Origin: Pelagibacteraceae bacterium | GTDB taxonomy: Bacteria; Pseudomonadota; Alphaproteobacteria; Pelagibacterales; Pelagibacteraceae | NCBI GenBank assembly: GCA_008638015.1 | Contig: VTPD01000003.1 | Location: 1-59,654 of the forward strand | Direction: 5' to 3' | Length of the DNA: 59,654 nt | Shown: piece by piece, positions 12,335 through 43,052 of the stretch | Layout: each line of letters opens with the position of its first letter | How positions within the stretch are numbered: the stretch's first letter is position 1 | Position numbers and translations under genes: made by a program | The notes under the pieces: generated by a model | The model's database searches: none | What the model was told of the DNA's origin: nothing | The model's input: only the letters and a program-made list of their open reading frames with translations

Positions 12335-15300
12335 ATGAGCACTGAAATCAAAGTTCCAGATATTGGCGATTTTAAAAACGTCGAAATTATTGAAATTTTA
12401 ATCAAAGAAGGTGATGAAGTTAATAAAAATGATCCAATTATCACAATCGAAAGTGACAAATCTAGTGTTGAAATACCAAGTCCTTTCTCAGGCAAAATAT
12501 CAGAGTTAAAAGTTAAAGTTGGAGATAAAGTATCCGAAGGAAGTTTAATTGGATTTATCGATACTAATGAACAAGCTCCCAGCGAAACCATTAAAGAAGA
12601 AAAAATATTTCCAGAAACCGAAAAAATTATTAAGGATGCAGAAGAGACATTGCAAAATAACTCGGGCAATCAGTCTTCAACCATAGATATTGAAATTCCA
12701 GATATTGGGGACTTTAAGAATGTTGAAATTATAGAAATTTTAGTAAAAGAAGGAGATCAAATAAATAAAAATGATCCTATTCTTAGTCTTGAAAGTGATA
12801 AATCAAGCATGGAAGTGCCGTCGCCTGTTTCAGGAATAATAAAGCAACTAAAAGTAAGTGTTGGAGATAAGGTATCTATGGGGAGTGTTATTGCTGCTGT
12901 AGAAAGTAAAGATACTGCAAAACAATCCTCATCACAAAAAAAACCAGATCCAATTGTAACTGAAAATAAATCTGTTGTTCCAAATACTCCTGCAACAAGT
13001 AGACCAGAGCCAAGAATTGAAATTAAAAACAATCAACTTTATAGCAGTGTACCAAATATCAACGATATAGATCCAACTGAAACAAATGAATGGATTGAAT
13101 CTTTAAGTGCAGTTGTAAAAAGAGATGGTGCTGAAAGAGCACATTACCTATTAAGTCAATTAATAGATCAGGCATATATTGCAGGTTCAAATTTACCTTA
13201 TACTCAAAACACTCCTTACATAAATACTATACCACCTGAATTAGAAGCAAAATCTCCCGGCGATCAAGAGATAGAAAGAAAAATTCGATCACTTATCAGA
13301 TGGAATGCAGCTGCTATGGTAGTACGAGCAAATAAAATTTCTCCTGAACTTGGTGGGCATATTGCAACATTTGCTTCTGCTGCAACTTTGTACGATGTAG
13401 GCTGTAATCATTTTTGGAGAGCAAAGTCTGAAGATTTTTTAGGTGATATGGTTTTTTACCAAGGTCATGCAGCGCCAGGCATGTATGCAAGATCTTATCT
13501 AGAAGGTCGAATTAATGAAGAACAATTAATTAATTTTAGACAAGAAGCAAAAGGTAATGGACTTTCATCTTATCCGCATCCATGGCTAATGCCAAATTAT
13601 TGGCAGTTTCCAACAGTTTCAATGGGTCTTGGTCCAATCATGTCAATCTATCAAGCAAGATTTATGAAATATCTTCAAAACAGAGGATTAATTCCTGATC
13701 AAAATAGAAAAGTTTGGACTTTTATTGGTGATGGAGAAACAGATGAACCTGAAACATTGGGTGCTATTGGTTTAGCCTCCAGAGAAAAATTAGATAATTT
13801 AATATTTGTCGTAAATTGTAATCTACAAAGATTAGATGGACCTGTCCGTGGAAATGGAAAAATTATTCAAGAGCTTGAAGGTACGTTTAGAGGAGCAGGT
13901 TGGAATGTCATTAAAGTAATTTGGGGATCTTATTGGGATCCTTTATTGCGAGCAGACAAAACAGGTCTTCTAATGAAGCGAATGAATGAATGTGTAGATG
14001 GCGAATATCAAGCTATGAAAGCAAAAGGTGGTTCTTATGTTAGAGAAAAATTTTTTGGAAAATATCCTGAACTATCAAAATTAGTTTCAAACATGTCTGA
14101 TGCTGACATTTGGAGGCTTAATAGAGGGGGCCATGATCCAAATAAAGTATATGCTGCATACGATGCTGCCACAAAACATAAAGGTCAACCAACTGTAATC
14201 TTAACTAAAAGTATTAAAGGTTATGGAATGGGAAAATCTGGAGAAAGTATTAATACAACTCATTCACAAAAAAAATTAGATGTCGATGATATGTTTTATT
14301 TTAGAGACAGATTTGAAATTCCTTTGACAGATAAACAAGTAGAAAATTTAGAATTTTATAGGCCAGATGAAAACTCTGAAGAAATTCAATACTTAAGAGA
14401 AAGACGAGCAAAACTTGGTGGACCAATTCCTTCAAGATCTTCAAAAGCAACACCAGTTAAAATCGAAAGCGCTCCATTCGAGTCTTCTTACAAGTCATCA
14501 GGAGAAAGACAAATTTCAACCACGATGGCGTTAGTTACGATTTTAACAAAAATATTAAGAGATAAAACTACTGCAGCAAGACTTGTTCCTATTATTCCAG
14601 ACGAGGCAAGAACTTTTGGTATGGAGGGCTTTTTCCAAAAGATAGGGATTTATGCTCATGAGGGACAAAAATACGAACCTGTAGATTCTGAACAAATTAG
14701 TTCGTATCGAGAAGATAAAAAGGGCCAAGTGCTAGAAGAAGGAATAACAGAGGCTGGAGCAATGTCATCTTTTGTTGCTGCGGGTACTGCATATGCAAAC
14801 CACGATATTGAAATGTTACCAATTTATATTTTTTACTCCATGTTTGGTTTTCAGCGAGTTATGGATTTAATTTGGGCTGCAGGTGACTCTCAAGCAAGAG
14901 GATTTTTAATTGGTGCAACAGCTGGAAGAACTACTTTGGCAGGAGAAGGTCTCCAGCACCAAGATGGACACAGCTTAATTATGGCTTCTATGATACCAAA
15001 TTGTATTTCTTATGACCCTACATACGCTTACGAATTAGCTATTATTTTTGAAGATGGATTAAGAAGAATGCACGAAAAACAAGAAAATGTTTTTTATTAT
15101 GTGACTACAATGAATGAAAACTATGTGCATCCCGAACTTCCAAAGCATGTAAAAAAAGAAGATATTCTTAAAGGAATGTATCTACTTAAGGAATTTGAAA
15201 ATAAAGGAAAATCTAAAGTTCAATTACTTGGATCTGGAACTATATTAAATGAAGTATTAAAAGCTGCTGAAATTTTAAGTGAAGAATATGGTATCGATTC

Positions 15301-15706
15301 TGATGTTTGGAGCGTTACTAGTTTTAATGAAATTAAAAAAAATGGGATGGAAGTTGAGCGAAAAAATCTCCTTAATCCAAATGAAGAAAGAGAAAAATCT
15401 CACGTAGAATTATGCCTGTCTGGTAGAGCTGGACCAGTGATTGCTGCAACAGACTATATGAGAATTCACGCAGACCAAATTAGACCGTATGTAAAAGAAT
15501 CTTTTTATGCTTTTGGTACTGATGGTTATGGCCGAAGTGATACAAGAAAAAATTTAAGAGAATTTTTTGAAGTAAACAAAGAATATATTGTTGCAAATAC
15601 TTTGAGTATTTTGGCACAAGAACAAAAGATAGCCTCAAGCGTAGCGCAACAGGCATTTGAAAAATACAATATCGATCAAAAAAAACCTATTCCGACTAAA
15701 TTATAA
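12335..15706 (+). CDS. aceE: Pyruvate dehydrogenase E1 (homodimeric type) with two N-terminal lipoyl domains
   Basis: ThDP-dependent E1 that decarboxylates pyruvate and reductively acetylates lipoyl groups. The 1123-residue protein is about 235 longer than E. coli AceE (887). Residues 3-76 and 117-191 are two lipoyl domains, each with the lipoylation motif ESDKSS (Lys42 and Lys156), joined by Ser/Pro/Thr/Gln-rich linkers. E1 starts near residue 243. It has the AceE signatures GGHIATFASAATLYDVG and YQGHAAPGMYARSYLEG with the two conserved His, and the ThDP motif GDGETDEPE (465-473). The AceE type differs from the alpha2-beta2 PdhAB type usual in alphaproteobacteria, where it is PdhB that often carries a lipoyl domain. 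The lipoyl modules closely resemble that of the next gene. The stop overlaps the E2 start by one base (TAATG). Confidence 0.95.
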   Translation: MSTEIKVPDIGDFKNVEIIEILIKEGDEVNKNDPIITIESDKSSVEIPSPFSGKISELKVKVGDKVSEGSLIGFIDTNEQAPSETIKEEKIFPETEKIIKDAEETLQNNSGNQSSTIDIEIPDIGDFKNVEIIEILVKEGDQINKNDPILSLESDKSSMEVPSPVSGIIKQLKVSVGDKVSMGSVIAAVESKDTAKQSSSQKKPDPIVTENKSVVPNTPATSRPEPRIEIKNNQLYSSVPNINDIDPTETNEWIESLSAVVKRDGAERAHYLLSQLIDQAYIAGSNLPYTQNTPYINTIPPELEAKSPGDQEIERKIRSLIRWNAAAMVVRANKISPELGGHIATFASAATLYDVGCNHFWRAKSEDFLGDMVFYQGHAAPGMYARSYLEGRINEEQLINFRQEAKGNGLSSYPHPWLMPNYWQFPTVSMGLGPIMSIYQARFMKYLQNRGLIPDQNRKVWTFIGDGETDEPETLGAIGLASREKLDNLIFVVNCNLQRLDGPVRGNGKIIQELEGTFRGAGWNVIKVIWGSYWDPLLRADKTGLLMKRMNECVDGEYQAMKAKGGSYVREKFFGKYPELSKLVSNMSDADIWRLNRGGHDPNKVYAAYDAATKHKGQPTVILTKSIKGYGMGKSGESINTTHSQKKLDVDDMFYFRDRFEIPLTDKQVENLEFYRPDENSEEIQYLRERRAKLGGPIPSRSSKATPVKIESAPFESSYKSSGERQISTTMALVTILTKILRDKTTAARLVPIIPDEARTFGMEGFFQKIGIYAHEGQKYEPVDSEQISSYREDKKGQVLEEGITEAGAMSSFVAAGTAYANHDIEMLPIYIFYSMFGFQRVMDLIWAAGDSQARGFLIGATAGRTTLAGEGLQHQDGHSLIMASMIPNCISYDPTYAYELAIIFEDGLRRMHEKQENVFYYVTTMNENYVHPELPKHVKKEDILKGMYLLKEFENKGKSKVQLLGSGTILNEVLKAAEILSEEYGIDSDVWSVTSFNEIKKNGMEVERKNLLNPNEEREKSHVELCLSGRAGPVIAATDYMRIHADQIRPYVKESFYAFGTDGYGRSDTRKNLREFFEVNKEYIVANTLSILAQEQKIASSVAQQAFEKYNIDQKKPIPTKL
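12341..12907 (+). repeat. Tandem lipoyl-domain modules in E1, third copy in E2
   Basis: Two in-frame modules (about 12341-12562 and 12683-12907) encode near-identical lipoyl domains starting IPDIGDFKNVEIIEIL or VPDIGDFKNVEIIEIL. A third copy is at about 15715-15933 in the E2 gene, starting VPNIGDFKDVEIIEIL. Protein similarity among the three is far higher than to the fourth, degenerate domain at about 16006-16239. This points to recent duplication or gene conversion within the locus. Confidence 0.85.
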
Positions 15707-38162: not shown

Positions 38163-39131
38163 ATGAAAAAAAATAAATTAATCACCTCAGCGAGAAAAGT
38201 TATATCTGCTGAAATTGTAGCTTTAAAAAAACTATCTCAATCTATTGATGCATCATTCATAAAAACTATAGATCTACTCCATAAAGTTAAGGGAAGAGTT
38301 ATTTGTTGTGGTGTCGGCAAATCAGCAAAAATATTAGAAAAAATATCAAGCACTCTATCATCTATTGGAATTTCAAGTTTTACTTTAGATCCAACAGATG
38401 CAGGGCATGGATCTTTGGGTGCAATTAAAAAAAATGATATTTTAATGATCGCTTCTTTTAGTGGCAACAGTTCAGAATTGGGGAATATCATCAAATACGC
38501 AAAAAAACTTTCTGTTAAAATTATTGGTATTAGCTCTAATCAACAATCAAACCTTATTCAGTCCAGTAACATCAAAATTATCATGCCCAAAGTTAAGGAG
38601 GCGGGCAATCAAGAGCTAGACATGATTCCAACCAGTAGCTCTATTAATTTATTATCGCTTGGTGACTGCATTGCAATATGCCTTGCGGAAAGAAAAAAAT
38701 TTAACAAAAGAAATTTTGGAGCATTCCATCCAAGTGGCAGTCTCGGTAAAAACTTGTCTACAGTTGAAGAAATTATGATTACTGGAAAAAACCTACCTAT
38801 TGTCGAAGAAACAACACCAATTAAAAATACTGTTTTAACTATTTCAACTAAAAGACTTGGATGTGCAATTGTTGTAAAAAATAAAAAAGTCACTGGATTT
38901 GTTTCTGATGGAGATATGAGCAGAGGAATTAAAAAATTCTCAAATATTTTTCAGAAGACGACAAAAGATATTATGTCCAAAAAACCACTATCTATATCTA
39001 AAGATTGTCTCATTATAGATGCGCTACGATTAATGAATGAAAGAAAAATTACTGCATTAATAATTGTTGAGAAAAAAAAATTAAAAGGAGTTATTCATAT
39101 GCATAATATTTTATCTTTTATGAATTCATGA
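38163..39131 (+). CDS. kdsD: Arabinose-5-phosphate isomerase (KdsD/KpsF/GutQ)
   Basis: Converts ribulose 5-phosphate to arabinose 5-phosphate for KDO synthesis. The 322-residue protein has an SIS sugar-isomerase domain (VICCGVGKSAKILEKISSTL, DAGHGSLGAI, IASFSGNSSEL) and two C-terminal CBS domains, including ITALIIVEKKKLKGVIHMHN. The site-specific FHPSGSLGK motif is present. Context with LPS-transport genes supports the KDO role. It overlaps lptC by four bases (ATGA). Confidence 0.95.
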   Translation: MKKNKLITSARKVISAEIVALKKLSQSIDASFIKTIDLLHKVKGRVICCGVGKSAKILEKISSTLSSIGISSFTLDPTDAGHGSLGAIKKNDILMIASFSGNSSELGNIIKYAKKLSVKIIGISSNQQSNLIQSSNIKIIMPKVKEAGNQELDMIPTSSSINLLSLGDCIAICLAERKKFNKRNFGAFHPSGSLGKNLSTVEEIMITGKNLPIVEETTPIKNTVLTISTKRLGCAIVVKNKKVTGFVSDGDMSRGIKKFSNIFQKTTKDIMSKKPLSISKDCLIIDALRLMNERKITALIIVEKKKLKGVIHMHNILSFMNS

Positions 39132-39733
39132 ATATTAATTTAGGAAAAATTACACAAATAACGTTAATACTATTAAGTTTTATTTTATTATTTTATACCT
39201 ACTATTACCTACCCAAACAGAACAAGGGATCAATCAAAGTAGAAACAAAAGAGGAAATTAAAACAGTTGAAGAAATAAAATCAAAAAATACATTCAAAAA
39301 TACTGAGTATATCAATACGGATAAGGAAGGGAAAAAATACACAACCCAAGCGAAAGAATCTTATATATTGCAAAACGAGCCAGACTTAATTTATTTAAAT
39401 GGTGTCTACTCTTTTACTACGCTTAAAAAAGATAATACGCTCATCGAAATTCGTTCTAAAAAAGCATTGGTTAATAAAAAAACTAACGAAACAACCTATG
39501 AAAATCAGGTAGTTATTACTAATAAAAGCTACAAAATTACCTCTAACATTGCAAAGCACTTATCTCAAAAAAATTTAATTGTCATAGATGGCAATGTTGT
39601 AATGAAAGATTTAACAGATGGATTGTCTCATATTGTTTATTGCGATACGGTAGAAATAGATACAACGACTAATAATGCTGTAGCCTTTATGAAAGACAAA
39701 AATAAAAAAGTTTTGGCAGAAAAATACAAATGA
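39128..39733 (+). CDS. lptC: LPS export protein LptC
   Basis: Bitopic inner-membrane protein that passes LPS from LptBFG to the periplasmic bridge. The 201-residue protein has one N-terminal transmembrane helix (about 10-28, ITLILLSFILLFYTYYYL) and a periplasmic OstA/LptC-like beta-jellyroll (NTEYINTDKEGKKYTTQA, ENQVVITNKSYKITSNIA). Identity rests on position after kdsD and this topology; sequence conservation is low, as normal for the family. It overlaps lptB by four bases. The lptA gene usually found between lptC and lptB is absent here. Confidence 0.8.
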   Translation: MNINLGKITQITLILLSFILLFYTYYYLPKQNKGSIKVETKEEIKTVEEIKSKNTFKNTEYINTDKEGKKYTTQAKESYILQNEPDLIYLNGVYSFTTLKKDNTLIEIRSKKALVNKKTNETTYENQVVITNKSYKITSNIAKHLSQKNLIVIDGNVVMKDLTDGLSHIVYCDTVEIDTTTNNAVAFMKDKNKKVLAEKYK

Positions 39734-40740
39734 AGAAAAAGAAAATTATCCAAGCCAGCATAATTCAGGAAAATATTAATGATGAAAATAAAATTACTAA
39801 TTTTACTGATAGGCAAGATTTATTAAAAAAAAATCAAGAAACAACAATAAATCCTGATATATTTTTTCTAGATACAAAATTTGCTATTCAGGAAAAAACA
39901 AAAGAAGAGAATAAGGAAATATTTGTTTTAAAGCCAGAATTCCAAGTCATTGAAAATCCGATTGAAATCAAAGAAGTAAAAAAAGAAAATATTTTTGATA
40001 TTAAATCAAAAAAGAACCAATCTCTTCAAATAAAAAAAATTTCAAAATCTTTAGGTGGCAGACCAATATTAAAAAATATTTCGTTAACACTTGAGCCAGG
40101 AAAAATTGTTGGACTGCTAGGACCTAATGGTTCAGGAAAAACAACGCTTTTTAACCTAATCATTGGAAAAATATTTCCTGATCAAGGAGAAATTATTTTT
40201 AATGATGAAGTTATTCATGATCTACAAATTCATACCAGAAGTTTAAAAGGTCTAAGCTTACTAGAGCAGCATAAGGGTTTGTTTGGCAACATGACAGCTG
40301 AAGAAAATTTATATGCTATTCTTGAACTACACATTAAAGATAAAGAAGAAATTAATGATAGGATTGATGCGCTACTTGGTTATTTTGAATTAGGCTACCT
40401 AAAAAAAAGCAAAGCAAACTCATTATCAGGTGGGGAGTATAAAAAAGTTTCTATTCTTCAAAGAATTTGCAATCCAACTATCTCCACACTTTTACTAGAT
40501 GAACCATGTGCTGCTTTAGATCCCTTATCGATTAGTTCTCTAAAAAAATTTATTGTTGAATTAAGAAATATTGGTTTATCTATTCTCATTACAGACCATA
40601 ATTACTGGGCAATTGAAAATATTTTGGATAAGGCCTATCTAATTAAGGACGGTCAAATATTAGTTGAAGGAACTCCAGAAAAAATTTCTAACGACGAAAA
40701 TGCTATAAAATATTATTTGGGTGGAAATTTTAGAATTTAA
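39730..40740 (+). CDS. lptB: LPS export ABC transporter ATPase LptB with long N-terminal extension
   Basis: ATPase driving LPS extraction from the inner membrane. The ABC domain starts near residue 99 and is complete: Walker A GPNGSGKT (131-138), signature LSGGEYKKVSI, Walker B TLLLDEPCAALDP and the switch His in ITDHNYWAI. Typical LptB is about 240 residues, while this one is 336. The first ~98 residues are rich in Lys, Glu, Asn and Ile and look mostly unstructured; they do not resemble LptA. Overlaps lptC by four bases, so this start is favoured by coupling. Ends four bases into the converging FYDLN gene. Confidence 0.92.
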   Translation: MKKKKIIQASIIQENINDENKITNFTDRQDLLKKNQETTINPDIFFLDTKFAIQEKTKEENKEIFVLKPEFQVIENPIEIKEVKKENIFDIKSKKNQSLQIKKISKSLGGRPILKNISLTLEPGKIVGLLGPNGSGKTTLFNLIIGKIFPDQGEIIFNDEVIHDLQIHTRSLKGLSLLEQHKGLFGNMTAEENLYAILELHIKDKEEINDRIDALLGYFELGYLKKSKANSLSGGEYKKVSILQRICNPTISTLLLDEPCAALDPLSISSLKKFIVELRNIGLSILITDHNYWAIENILDKAYLIKDGQILVEGTPEKISNDENAIKYYLGGNFRI

Positions 40741-41030
40741 TCTGGTTTAAATTCTTCGTTTGAATCTTCTATTTCTTTTTGATCATCTAGAGAGATAATA
40801 TCATCTTCAACACCATCGCTAGCAACATCATCAATATTATCTAAATCATCAACTTTCTTTTCTTTTACCTCGGGCTTTGCTACCGGAGCATACGTTTGTT
40901 TTAAATTCATTTCTTCAGGTATGTATTCTGCACTACAAATCGGACAAGTGATTTTATCTTTTTTGTTCATCGTGTAGTATTTTGCACCACACTCACAAAA
41001 AATTTTATTTCCCCAACTTTGATCAGCCAT
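40737..41030 (-). CDS. FYDLN-acid (TIGR02300) family zinc-ribbon protein
   Basis: A 97-residue alphaproteobacterial protein with an N-terminal zinc ribbon (CECGAKYYTMNKKDKITCP, with CxC and CPIC) and a long acidic tail rich in Asp and Glu. The family name comes from the FYDLN motif, here YYTMN. Its position divergent to aroA, 54 bases away, is conserved in alphaproteobacteria. Function unknown; a nucleic-acid or metal-related regulatory role is plausible but unproven. Confidence 0.85.
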   Translation of the reverse strand: MADQSWGNKIFCECGAKYYTMNKKDKITCPICSAEYIPEEMNLKQTYAPVAKPEVKEKKVDDLDNIDDVASDGVEDDIISLDDQKEIEDSNEEFKPD

Positions 41031-41084: not shown

Positions 41085-43052
41085 ATGGCAATTAAAAAAT
41101 TATTTAAAGCACCTAATAATATATCTCTGAAAGGATCGCTGCATTTACCTGGTGACAAATCTATTGGAATTCGTTCTTTAATTATACTTTCTCAAAGCTA
41201 TGGCATCTCAAACGTAAGTAATATTTCTGATGGTGAAGATGTGCAGACTGCTTTGGCTAATATTAAAAAATTAAAAATAACTGTTCAAAAAACAGGACCA
41301 TCTGATTACAAAATTTTCGGTTTAGGAATTGGTTTTAAGCCATTTAAAGGAACTTTAAATTTTAATAATAGCGGAACAACCTTAAGACTTTTAACTGGAT
41401 TGCTTTCCACCTCTCCAGTTGAAGCAAAACTCATTGGTGATGCTTCTTTATCAAAAAGACCAATAAGAATAATTTCTCTCATGGAAAAATTTTTTGCATC
41501 TTTTTCTCCTAAAAATAAAGATTATCTGCCAATCAAACTAATTGGATATGGAGACGCAGTTCAAAATGATATTTCGATCACTAAACCATCAGCGCAAATA
41601 ATCAGTGCTTGTATCTTAGCTGGTATGAACGCACATGGCTTAACATCGATCACTGCACCTAATACTGCAAGAGATCATACGGAAAGAATGTTGAAATATT
41701 TAAAATACCCTATTCAAATAAAAAATCATGGAAAGATGAAGACAATTAAAATTATGGGTAAACAATTTTTATCTGCAGAAAAAAATTATATTGTACCAGG
41801 TGACCCATCTTCAGCTGCATTTATAATTGTTTTGGGTGCGCTAACTAAAAATAGTAGCGTCACACTTCATAATATTCTGCTCAATGAAAAAAGAATTGGT
41901 TTTTTAAAAGTATTAAAAAAAATGGGTGCTAATATTCAAATTAAAAATAAAAAAATAAAATTTGGCGAAAGTGTTGGAGATATAGAAGTTAAATCTTCTA
42001 TGTTACGTGGAGTATCATTATCAGCTGAGATCATTCCAAGTATTATTGACGAGATTCCAATATTAATGGTTGCAGCAGCTTTTGCTGATGGAAAAAGTTA
42101 TTTTCCAAACTTAGATGAATTAAAAATAAAAGAGTCTGACCGTTTAGCTGCAATGGAAATCAATTTAAAAAAAGTTGGAGTTTCTCTTACAAGAACTAGT
42201 AATAGCTTAACCATTCTTGGTTTAGATGAAGATTTTTACTCTAACAAAGTTGCAATAGTAGATAGTTTTAAAGACCATAGAATAGCTATGAGCTTTGCGG
42301 TAATGGCAATGGCTTCTAAAAAGAAAATTCATATAAAAGATTTTGATTGCGCAAGAGTTAGCTATCCAAACTTTTTATCTGATATTGAAAAAATTAGAAA
42401 TAAAAGCTTTAAGCAAATTATTGTTGGATTGGATGGACCAGTATCTAGTGGTAAAACTTCCGTTGCAAAATATGCAGCAAATAAATTACAAAACAGTTTG
42501 TTTTTAGACTCTGGATTGCTCTATCGATTTCTTGCAAAAAAGCAGTTGCAACAGAAGCAAAAAAAAATAAACGTCAGCAAATTAATTACTATTGCAAAAA
42601 AAATATCCTTAAATGATTTAAAATCTTCAGGGCTACATAAGCAAAATATTAATCTACTGGTTTCTAAAATTGCGAAAATTCCTCAAATAAGAAAAGCCCT
42701 ACTTCCAGTGCAAAGAAAAATTATCTTTAACACTTCTTTTCAAAATGTATTTGTCTGCGGAAGAGATATTAATTCTAAAGTTGCTCAAAATGCAGATCTA
42801 AAAATATACATTGATGCCCCATTAAAAATGAGAGCAACAAGAAGATATCTAGAACTAAAAAAAATTAATCCAGCTATTACCTTCGAAGAAGTGCTAAAAA
42901 CCGTTAAAATGAGAGATTTTAACGATAAATCTAGATCGCATTCTCCCCTAATTAAAACCAAAGACTCTATCTTGATTAATAATACAGGAAGCAATATAAG
43001 AACCACCTTTGTAAAATTACAAAGATTAATTAGAAAGGTTCAGAGTAACTAA
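41085..43052 (+). CDS. aroA-cmk: Fused 3-phosphoshikimate 1-carboxyvinyltransferase (AroA) and cytidylate kinase (Cmk)
   Basis: One 655-residue frame holds two enzymes normally encoded by neighbouring genes. Residues 1 to about 437 are EPSP synthase (shikimate pathway), with LPGDKSIGIRSL, NNSGTTLRLLTG, ARDHTERML, LKIKESDRLAAM and KDHRIAMSFAVMA. Residues from about 443 are CMP kinase, with P-loop GPVSSGKTS (451-459), LDSGLLYRFLA, CGRDINSKV and MRDFNDKSR-like segments. No stop, start or ribosome-binding site separates them. The order aroA-cmk-rpsA is standard in proteobacteria, so the fusion is a local deletion of the junction. The kinase half is somewhat divergent (DSGLLYR for the usual DTGAMYR). 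Confidence 0.95.
   Translation: MAIKKLFKAPNNISLKGSLHLPGDKSIGIRSLIILSQSYGISNVSNISDGEDVQTALANIKKLKITVQKTGPSDYKIFGLGIGFKPFKGTLNFNNSGTTLRLLTGLLSTSPVEAKLIGDASLSKRPIRIISLMEKFFASFSPKNKDYLPIKLIGYGDAVQNDISITKPSAQIISACILAGMNAHGLTSITAPNTARDHTERMLKYLKYPIQIKNHGKMKTIKIMGKQFLSAEKNYIVPGDPSSAAFIIVLGALTKNSSVTLHNILLNEKRIGFLKVLKKMGANIQIKNKKIKFGESVGDIEVKSSMLRGVSLSAEIIPSIIDEIPILMVAAAFADGKSYFPNLDELKIKESDRLAAMEINLKKVGVSLTRTSNSLTILGLDEDFYSNKVAIVDSFKDHRIAMSFAVMAMASKKKIHIKDFDCARVSYPNFLSDIEKIRNKSFKQIIVGLDGPVSSGKTSVAKYAANKLQNSLFLDSGLLYRFLAKKQLQQKQKKINVSKLITIAKKISLNDLKSSGLHKQNINLLVSKIAKIPQIRKALLPVQRKIIFNTSFQNVFVCGRDINSKVAQNADLKIYIDAPLKMRATRRYLELKKINPAITFEEVLKTVKMRDFNDKSRSHSPLIKTKDSILINNTGSNIRTTFVKLQRLIRKVQSN

Follow-up and report, generated by a model that had tools for sequence, protein, structure and literature searches.

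A putative LptA-less lipopolysaccharide bridge in the SAR11 family, with an LptC-like protein that ends like LptA

Introduction

In E. coli, seven Lpt proteins are essential, LptA among them (PMC9972910), and the C-terminal region of LptA binds the N-terminal domain of LptD (PMC3944529). Suppressor mutations in lptF allow E. coli to tolerate the loss of LptC, while deletions of lptA were not obtained through that selection (PMC4986956). The suppressor strains thus described have a six-protein bridge without LptC (PMC9972910, PMC4986956).

The seven-protein bridge of E. coli (LptB2FGC-LptA-LptDE) and the system described in this study share LptB, LptF, LptG, an LptC-like protein, and LptD, all found within the genus of the genome analyzed here, and a jellyroll bridge is expected in both. 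The present system belongs to the SAR11 family, whose cells rank among the ocean's most abundant. It differs from that of E. coli in that no separate LptA was found, the tail of LptC is LptA-like, and the N-terminal domain of LptD is larger than that of the sister family. The lptF suppressor strains resemble SAR11 in having one jellyroll module fewer, with a single protein that would join LptF to LptD; however, they drop LptC and keep LptA, whereas in SAR11 it is lptA that is missing, naturally and across the family. The neighborhood of lptC and lptB is common to SAR11 and the alphaproteobacterial lptC-lptA-lptB operon, including that of a sister family within the Pelagibacterales, but the operon has a separate lptA between the two genes, which SAR11 lacks; the sister-family version encodes about 149 aa. 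Among the matches listed in our literature search, which covered the open PMC library, there was no description of an LptA-less SAR11 bridge or an LptC/LptA hybrid.

The kdsD-lptC-lptB locus

The window, i.e., the whole stretch of DNA analyzed (59,654 nucleotides), is from a SAR11 (Pelagibacteraceae) genome, and the features of the locus are listed in Table 1. The initial annotation stated that kdsD, lptC, and lptB overlap by four bases each and leave no room for lptA. The open reading frames and family models agree with this, since a 4-base overlap is present at both the kdsD/lptC and lptC/lptB junctions. The kdsD product has SIS and CBS domains and a KpsF match in Pfam and NCBIfam. The LptC-like protein scored 29.5 bits with PF06835 (cut-off 21) and 37.4 bits with TIGR04409, slightly below the cut-off of 38; PF06835 matched 31 of the 32 LptC-like proteins of the family at E ≤ 0.1. 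LptB was identified from its ABC ATPase motifs, its best match to LptB models, and its position next to lptC.

Table 1 Coordinates of the features of the kdsD-lptC-lptB locus in the window.
Feature	Position	Strand	Remarks
kdsD	38163..39131	+	Opens the cluster; arabinose-5-phosphate isomerase of the KpsF/GutQ family; TIGR00393 223.3 bits (cut-off 203.7)
lptC-like gene	39128..39733	+	201 aa; read as LptC/LptA hybrid
Transmembrane helix of the hybrid	39140..39208	+	Residues 5-27 in the predicted model
LptC-like part of the hybrid	39128..39499	+	Residues 1-124; profile comparison
LptA-like part of the hybrid	39500..39730	+	Residues 125-201; proposed LptD-docking end; switch point only roughly placed
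lptB	39730..40740	+	ABC_tran; best NCBIfam match is LptB TIGR04406, 229.7 bits (below the 240 cut-off)
N-terminal extension of LptB	39730..40017	+	About 96 residues, rich in K/E/N/D; probably disordered
ABC ATPase core of LptB and stop codon	40018..40740	+	Walker A, LSGGE signature, DEP, and H-loop by eye

Gene order in the family and its relatives

In 33 of the 37 Pelagibacteraceae genomes (genera g1-g14), including that of the window, the LptC-like frame runs up to lptB with nothing between them and ends at positions ranging from 23 bases inside the lptB start to 3 bases before it. This count combines 30 of 34 loci from a systematic pass with three loci (G014, G020, and G026) that were read individually; the outlier, G005, has a broken lptB frame. 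In the remaining four genomes, LptB matches were absent (G011, G034, and G036) or weak (G007, about 32% identity), and the latter were taken for other ABC ATPases.

Of the 24 genomes from the sister family, which belongs to the same order, 23 have an LptA match immediately upstream of lptB. The matching frame has 147-177 aa, mostly about 150 and typically about 149, and G056 gave a match to neither LptA nor LptB. A frame of 164-189 aa precedes LptA in the 18 loci examined, and 37 of 39 control frames upstream of lptA in the sister family and the outgroup match LptC. Across the class, a match to the LptA model was present in 171 of 186 good genomes and exceeded the cut-off in 35 of 192; this model also matches LptD-sized frames and two SAR11 genomes.

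Two-part homology of the LptC-like protein

The hybrid set consisted of 32 rows from 31 genomes, with G015 entered twice and without G016 (cut at the contig start) and G033; 21 of the 32 were used for the profile-profile comparisons and for the test of how far matches reach along LptA. Nine of 30 outgroup loci, whose upstream frame was not cleanly LptC, and five of 23 sister-family LptA loci were left out. In the profile comparisons, residues 1-124 matched alphaproteobacterial LptC with an E-value of 3e-14 and LptA with 0.084, and the corresponding values for the sister family were 3.7e-8 and 0.0027. For residues 125-201 the preference was reversed: the outgroup profiles gave 1e-8 with LptA and 3.4e-4 with LptC, and the sister-family profiles gave 9.6e-13 and 3.6e-6. 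Ordinary LptC proteins, cut in four ways from two alignments, preferred LptC throughout without a switch; the two sister-family slicings have identical C-terminal columns, and the four slicings thus represent three independent C-ends. The hybrid appears homologous to LptA in its C-terminal half but not in its N-terminal half, where it matches LptC.

The same division was seen in individual sequences. The last 77 residues scored higher with LptA than with LptC in 27-31 of the 32 hybrids; for ordinary LptCs, the counts were 2 of 18 and 4 of 21. Of the three model pairs, two gave an LptC preference for the first 120 residues in all 32 hybrids, and the third did so in 28. An LptC-type C-terminal end was thus not found with the 77-residue tail. 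The distinction blurs when the tail is cut to 45 or 60 residues, lengths at which the LptCs of the sister family also lean to LptA (12 of 18 and 10 of 18, respectively). The LptA profile meets the LptC-like frames of the family mainly through its C-terminal half.

The predicted structure of the hybrid has a helix at residues 5-27 followed by nine strands, forming one anchored jellyroll (pLDDT 73.9). An N-terminal helix and a single jellyroll are also features of LptC, and the best Foldseek matches were LptC chains. The model hardly distinguishes LptC (Z 14.5) from LptA (Z 14.1), and its last 12 residues are of low confidence; the predicted structure was therefore not taken as proof of a hybrid. 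The profile of the C-terminal half retrieved LptA chains (2r19, best E-value 1.6e-6) and no LptC from the PDB. The tail is not alone in this, as the whole-hybrid profile likewise found LptA and no LptC, while the N-terminal half found neither convincingly.

LptA, LptC, and the N-terminal domain of LptD share one repeating fold, and cross-matches among them are expected for this reason. An unlikely but serious rival to gene fusion is that lptA was lost without any fusion and that a true LptC tail drifted or converged on an LptA-like sequence and docks on LptD, giving the same LptA-less working machine through a different history. It is serious because the likeness of LptC to LptA is general and the PDB, family-model, and fold tests discriminate poorly. 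The profiles of ordinary LptC and LptA align with each other end to end (E-value 2.2e-10), and the match between the hybrid and LptA is comparable (8.3e-11). The whole-hybrid profile aligns with LptC over nearly its full length (6.8e-20), and among the matches listed, the LptC-model matches of single hybrids extend to residues 156-189, near the end of the protein in at least several genera. When a combined LptA profile was used, the match of a single control LptC (L062) extended to position 159 of 164. In whole-protein scans, 21 of the 32 hybrids and 18 of 39 ordinary LptCs matched the LptA/LptD_N Pfam model, and 24 of 32 and 13 of 39, respectively, matched TIGR03002; such counts separate the two groups poorly and were rejected as proof of a hybrid. 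The LptA margin of the hybrid tail is also modest, with means of 5-10 bits at 77 residues, far under the 22-34 bits of true LptA.

Two results argue against convergence. The sister-family LptA profile was matched to at least position 141 of 149 in 18 of 21 hybrids, whereas none of the 18 sister-family LptCs went beyond position 131. In a tree of C-ends (110 rows), the 32 hybrids grouped with 39 LptA sequences (71 in total) and split from 39 LptC sequences at 100/98, although this tree is built on few columns, has a long branch, and contains outgroup rows cut at lengths unlike the rest.

The periplasmic arm of LptD

The LptD arm was defined as the segment from the end of the signal segment, estimated by hydrophobicity, to the barrel-start motif. 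It has 160-190 residues in eight outgroup alphaproteobacteria and 164-166 in three sister-family genomes, while in SAR11 it has 193-206 residues in five genomes (genera g1, g6, and g10) and 226-292 in 11 others. The periplasmic domain of SAR11 LptD is thus about 30-125 residues longer than that of the sister family, but in g1, g6, and g10 the arm starts from 193 residues, only just above the outgroup maximum of 190. Sixteen of 19 SAR11 LptDs entered the comparison, and the barrel-start motif was lacking in two of six sister-family loci and four of 12 outgroup loci. The summed bridge length is 436-457 residues in the relatives with LptA, and 363-383 (g1, g6, and g10) or 396-457 (other genera) in SAR11.

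The SAR11 and sister-family LptD domains align end to end, and the extra length is then internal. The first 138 columns of the SAR11 domain match LptA with an E-value of 4e-12, and outgroup LptD does so at 7.7e-13; a move of a whole LptA domain into the N-terminus of LptD is not supported by these alignments. In one locus of genus g8 (L075 of G025), the lptD region appears as two frames (201 and 444 aa) and may be split or hold an error.

Search for a stand-alone LptA and the rest of the Lpt system

In the 37 genomes of the family, searches with PF03968 and an 18-row profile of sister-family LptA gave matches positioned in the hybrid or the LptD N-terminus, together with weak strays. A 32-row profile of the hybrid itself was applied to 18 genomes (≥90% complete, six genera, seven of them single-contig); it found exactly one hybrid in each and no convincing further jellyroll frame. 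Four stray frames were opened and rejected as LptA, since by eye they are heparinase-like, RidA-like, and, in two cases, MetG-like. The other weak strays of the hybrid profile have E-values of 0.03 to 7.4 and lie mostly on the transmembrane segment; the inspection by eye covers the four frames opened. A separate soluble periplasmic LptA with its own gene was thus not found in profile searches of the family. The initial annotation had offered two options, a relocated lptA or a bridge of different construction in this lineage. No ordinary or relocated lptA turned up elsewhere in these searches, and the second option is supported by the LptA-like tail, the longer LptD, and the failure of the profiles to find a stand-alone LptA.

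The searches may nevertheless have missed an LptA that is otherwise ordinary but has diverged strongly or been relocated, and that serves in the usual seven-protein bridge; we consider this improbable. The LptA profile gave no LptD match in some LptD-bearing genomes (e.g., G008, G021, and G029), and the weak strays of the hybrid profile would leave room for such a protein. However, none of three profiles, one of them built from the lineage's own hybrid, revealed it, the strays that were opened resemble other proteins, and the longer LptD arm would lack an explanation.

LPS is expected in the family because LpxC is present: it was found in 19 of the 23 genomes searched, including that of the window, and in all 13 searched genomes that are ≥90% complete and ≤5% contaminated. 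LptF, LptG, and LptD were identified within the genus from congeners. PF03739 (LptF/G) has matches in all five congeners, and in G005 and G002 two LptF/G frames and an LptD frame are adjacent; LptD was named from its position and barrel-start motif, and in G005 also from a weak PF03968 match. In the window's own genome, PF03739 gave no match, and the region falls in an assembly gap. In G005, pepA-like and pdxA-like genes flank lptF-lptG-lptD-surA (pepA, pdxA, and surA were named by eye). In the window's genome, no more than ~460 bases separate the pepA-like match from where contig C47 ends, and the match to pdxA begins at base 168 of C51. The apparent absence of LptF, LptG, and LptD is attributed to this placement of the flanking genes at contig ends, and a true absence was rejected, as a single gap of about 5 kb would accommodate surA, lptD, lptG, and lptF in the gene order of G005. 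Contig C67 was also rejected as a source of LptD; its PF03968 match has an E-value of 0.19 only, and its 759-aa frame starts like malic enzyme by eye.

Proposed Lpt bridge of SAR11

The gene order, the lack of a detectable stand-alone LptA, the two-part homology of "LptC", and the longer LptD domain are direct observations, and they point to what is likely a new variant of the Lpt bridge common to the SAR11 family. From sequence comparison, it seems reasonably probable that the family has a two-module LPS bridge composed of an LptC that ends like LptA and an enlarged LptD arm. The more specific reading, a natural LptA-less bridge in which the front of lptC was fused to the back of lptA and complemented by a longer LptD arm, is the one we favor on balance.

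A deletion probably merged the 5' part of lptC with the 3' part of lptA, creating one inner-membrane-anchored beta-jellyroll protein. This protein would dock on LptF at one end and, through direct contact, on LptD at the other, with LPS presumably flowing through the hybrid into LptD. Combining an LptC front with an LptA back would keep both outer contacts and drop the contact between LptC and LptA. With the longer LptD domain, the length of jellyroll between the membranes remains near that of LptA-bearing relatives in most genera measured.

If this proposal is correct, SAR11 possesses a natural LptA-free Lpt machine of a kind that the published E. coli selection did not yield. The loss of one module would have been offset by the growth of another, and the LPS bridge would be modular enough to lose a subunit when both docking ends are kept. 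For structural studies such a bridge would be a simpler object, and it would pose the question of how its length is matched to the periplasm. The "lptC" annotations in SAR11 genomes may hide a merged gene.

The N-terminal extension of LptB

A Lys/Glu/Asn-rich N-terminal region of about 98 residues had been noted in LptB. It was recovered at nearly this length, as the model match of the window's LptB starts at residue 99, and K, E, N, and D make up 48% of the extension. Extensions of 59-137 residues occur in 13 sequences from four of the 14 genera of the family (g1, g6, g8, and g10), a set that leaves out the interrupted congener G005; seven other LptBs of the family that were aligned have just 12-17 residues ahead of the core. 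Absence or a frame-shift in close relatives had also been considered. The extension is present in all five congeners and, like the lptC-lptB junction that recurs across the family, is no chance feature. A frame-shift was seen in one congener: in the complete genome of G005 (L138, G005:C1:525000-527500), the lptB frame breaks within the extension, at an A-run, which may represent a sequencing error, phase variation, or re-initiation.

A short basic start is kept among the extensions, and some contain a loosely repeated IL.KKEF.V element. Internal repeats clearly beat shuffles (3 or fewer of 300) in five of the 13 extensions, but not clearly in the window's own (18 of 300); a conserved repeat motif is therefore only partly supported and was not adopted. 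No convincing second copy of the extension was found elsewhere in the window's genome (best other match, E-value 0.15), and the predicted LptB structure (mean pLDDT 42.6) was too poor for use.

The initial annotation had implied a link between this extension and the missing lptA, which did not hold up. That the extension compensates for LptA is highly improbable: both features meet in the window's genome, but LptB is a cytoplasmic ATPase, the extension is limited to four of 14 genera that all lack lptA, its length varies widely, and it is interrupted in G005. Because of this limited distribution, we regard the extension as separate from the loss of lptA; our best guess is a clade-limited flexible tether or docking tail.

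Neighboring genes

A small FYDLN_acid protein (PF09538) is encoded on the - strand at 40737-41030, convergent to lptB and overlapping its end by four bases; small frames that look alike by eye are also found next to lptB in L005, L007, L008, and L030. At 41085-43052, AroA (EPSP synthase, residues 14-432) and cytidylate kinase (residues 448-639) form a single frame of 655 aa, whereas the aroA frame has 441-452 aa in five loci from other SAR11 genera. The pyruvate dehydrogenase E1 frame at 12335-15706 (1123 aa) has two lipoyl-domain stretches, one of which spans residues 4-73. Such stretches are unusual on pyruvate dehydrogenase E1.
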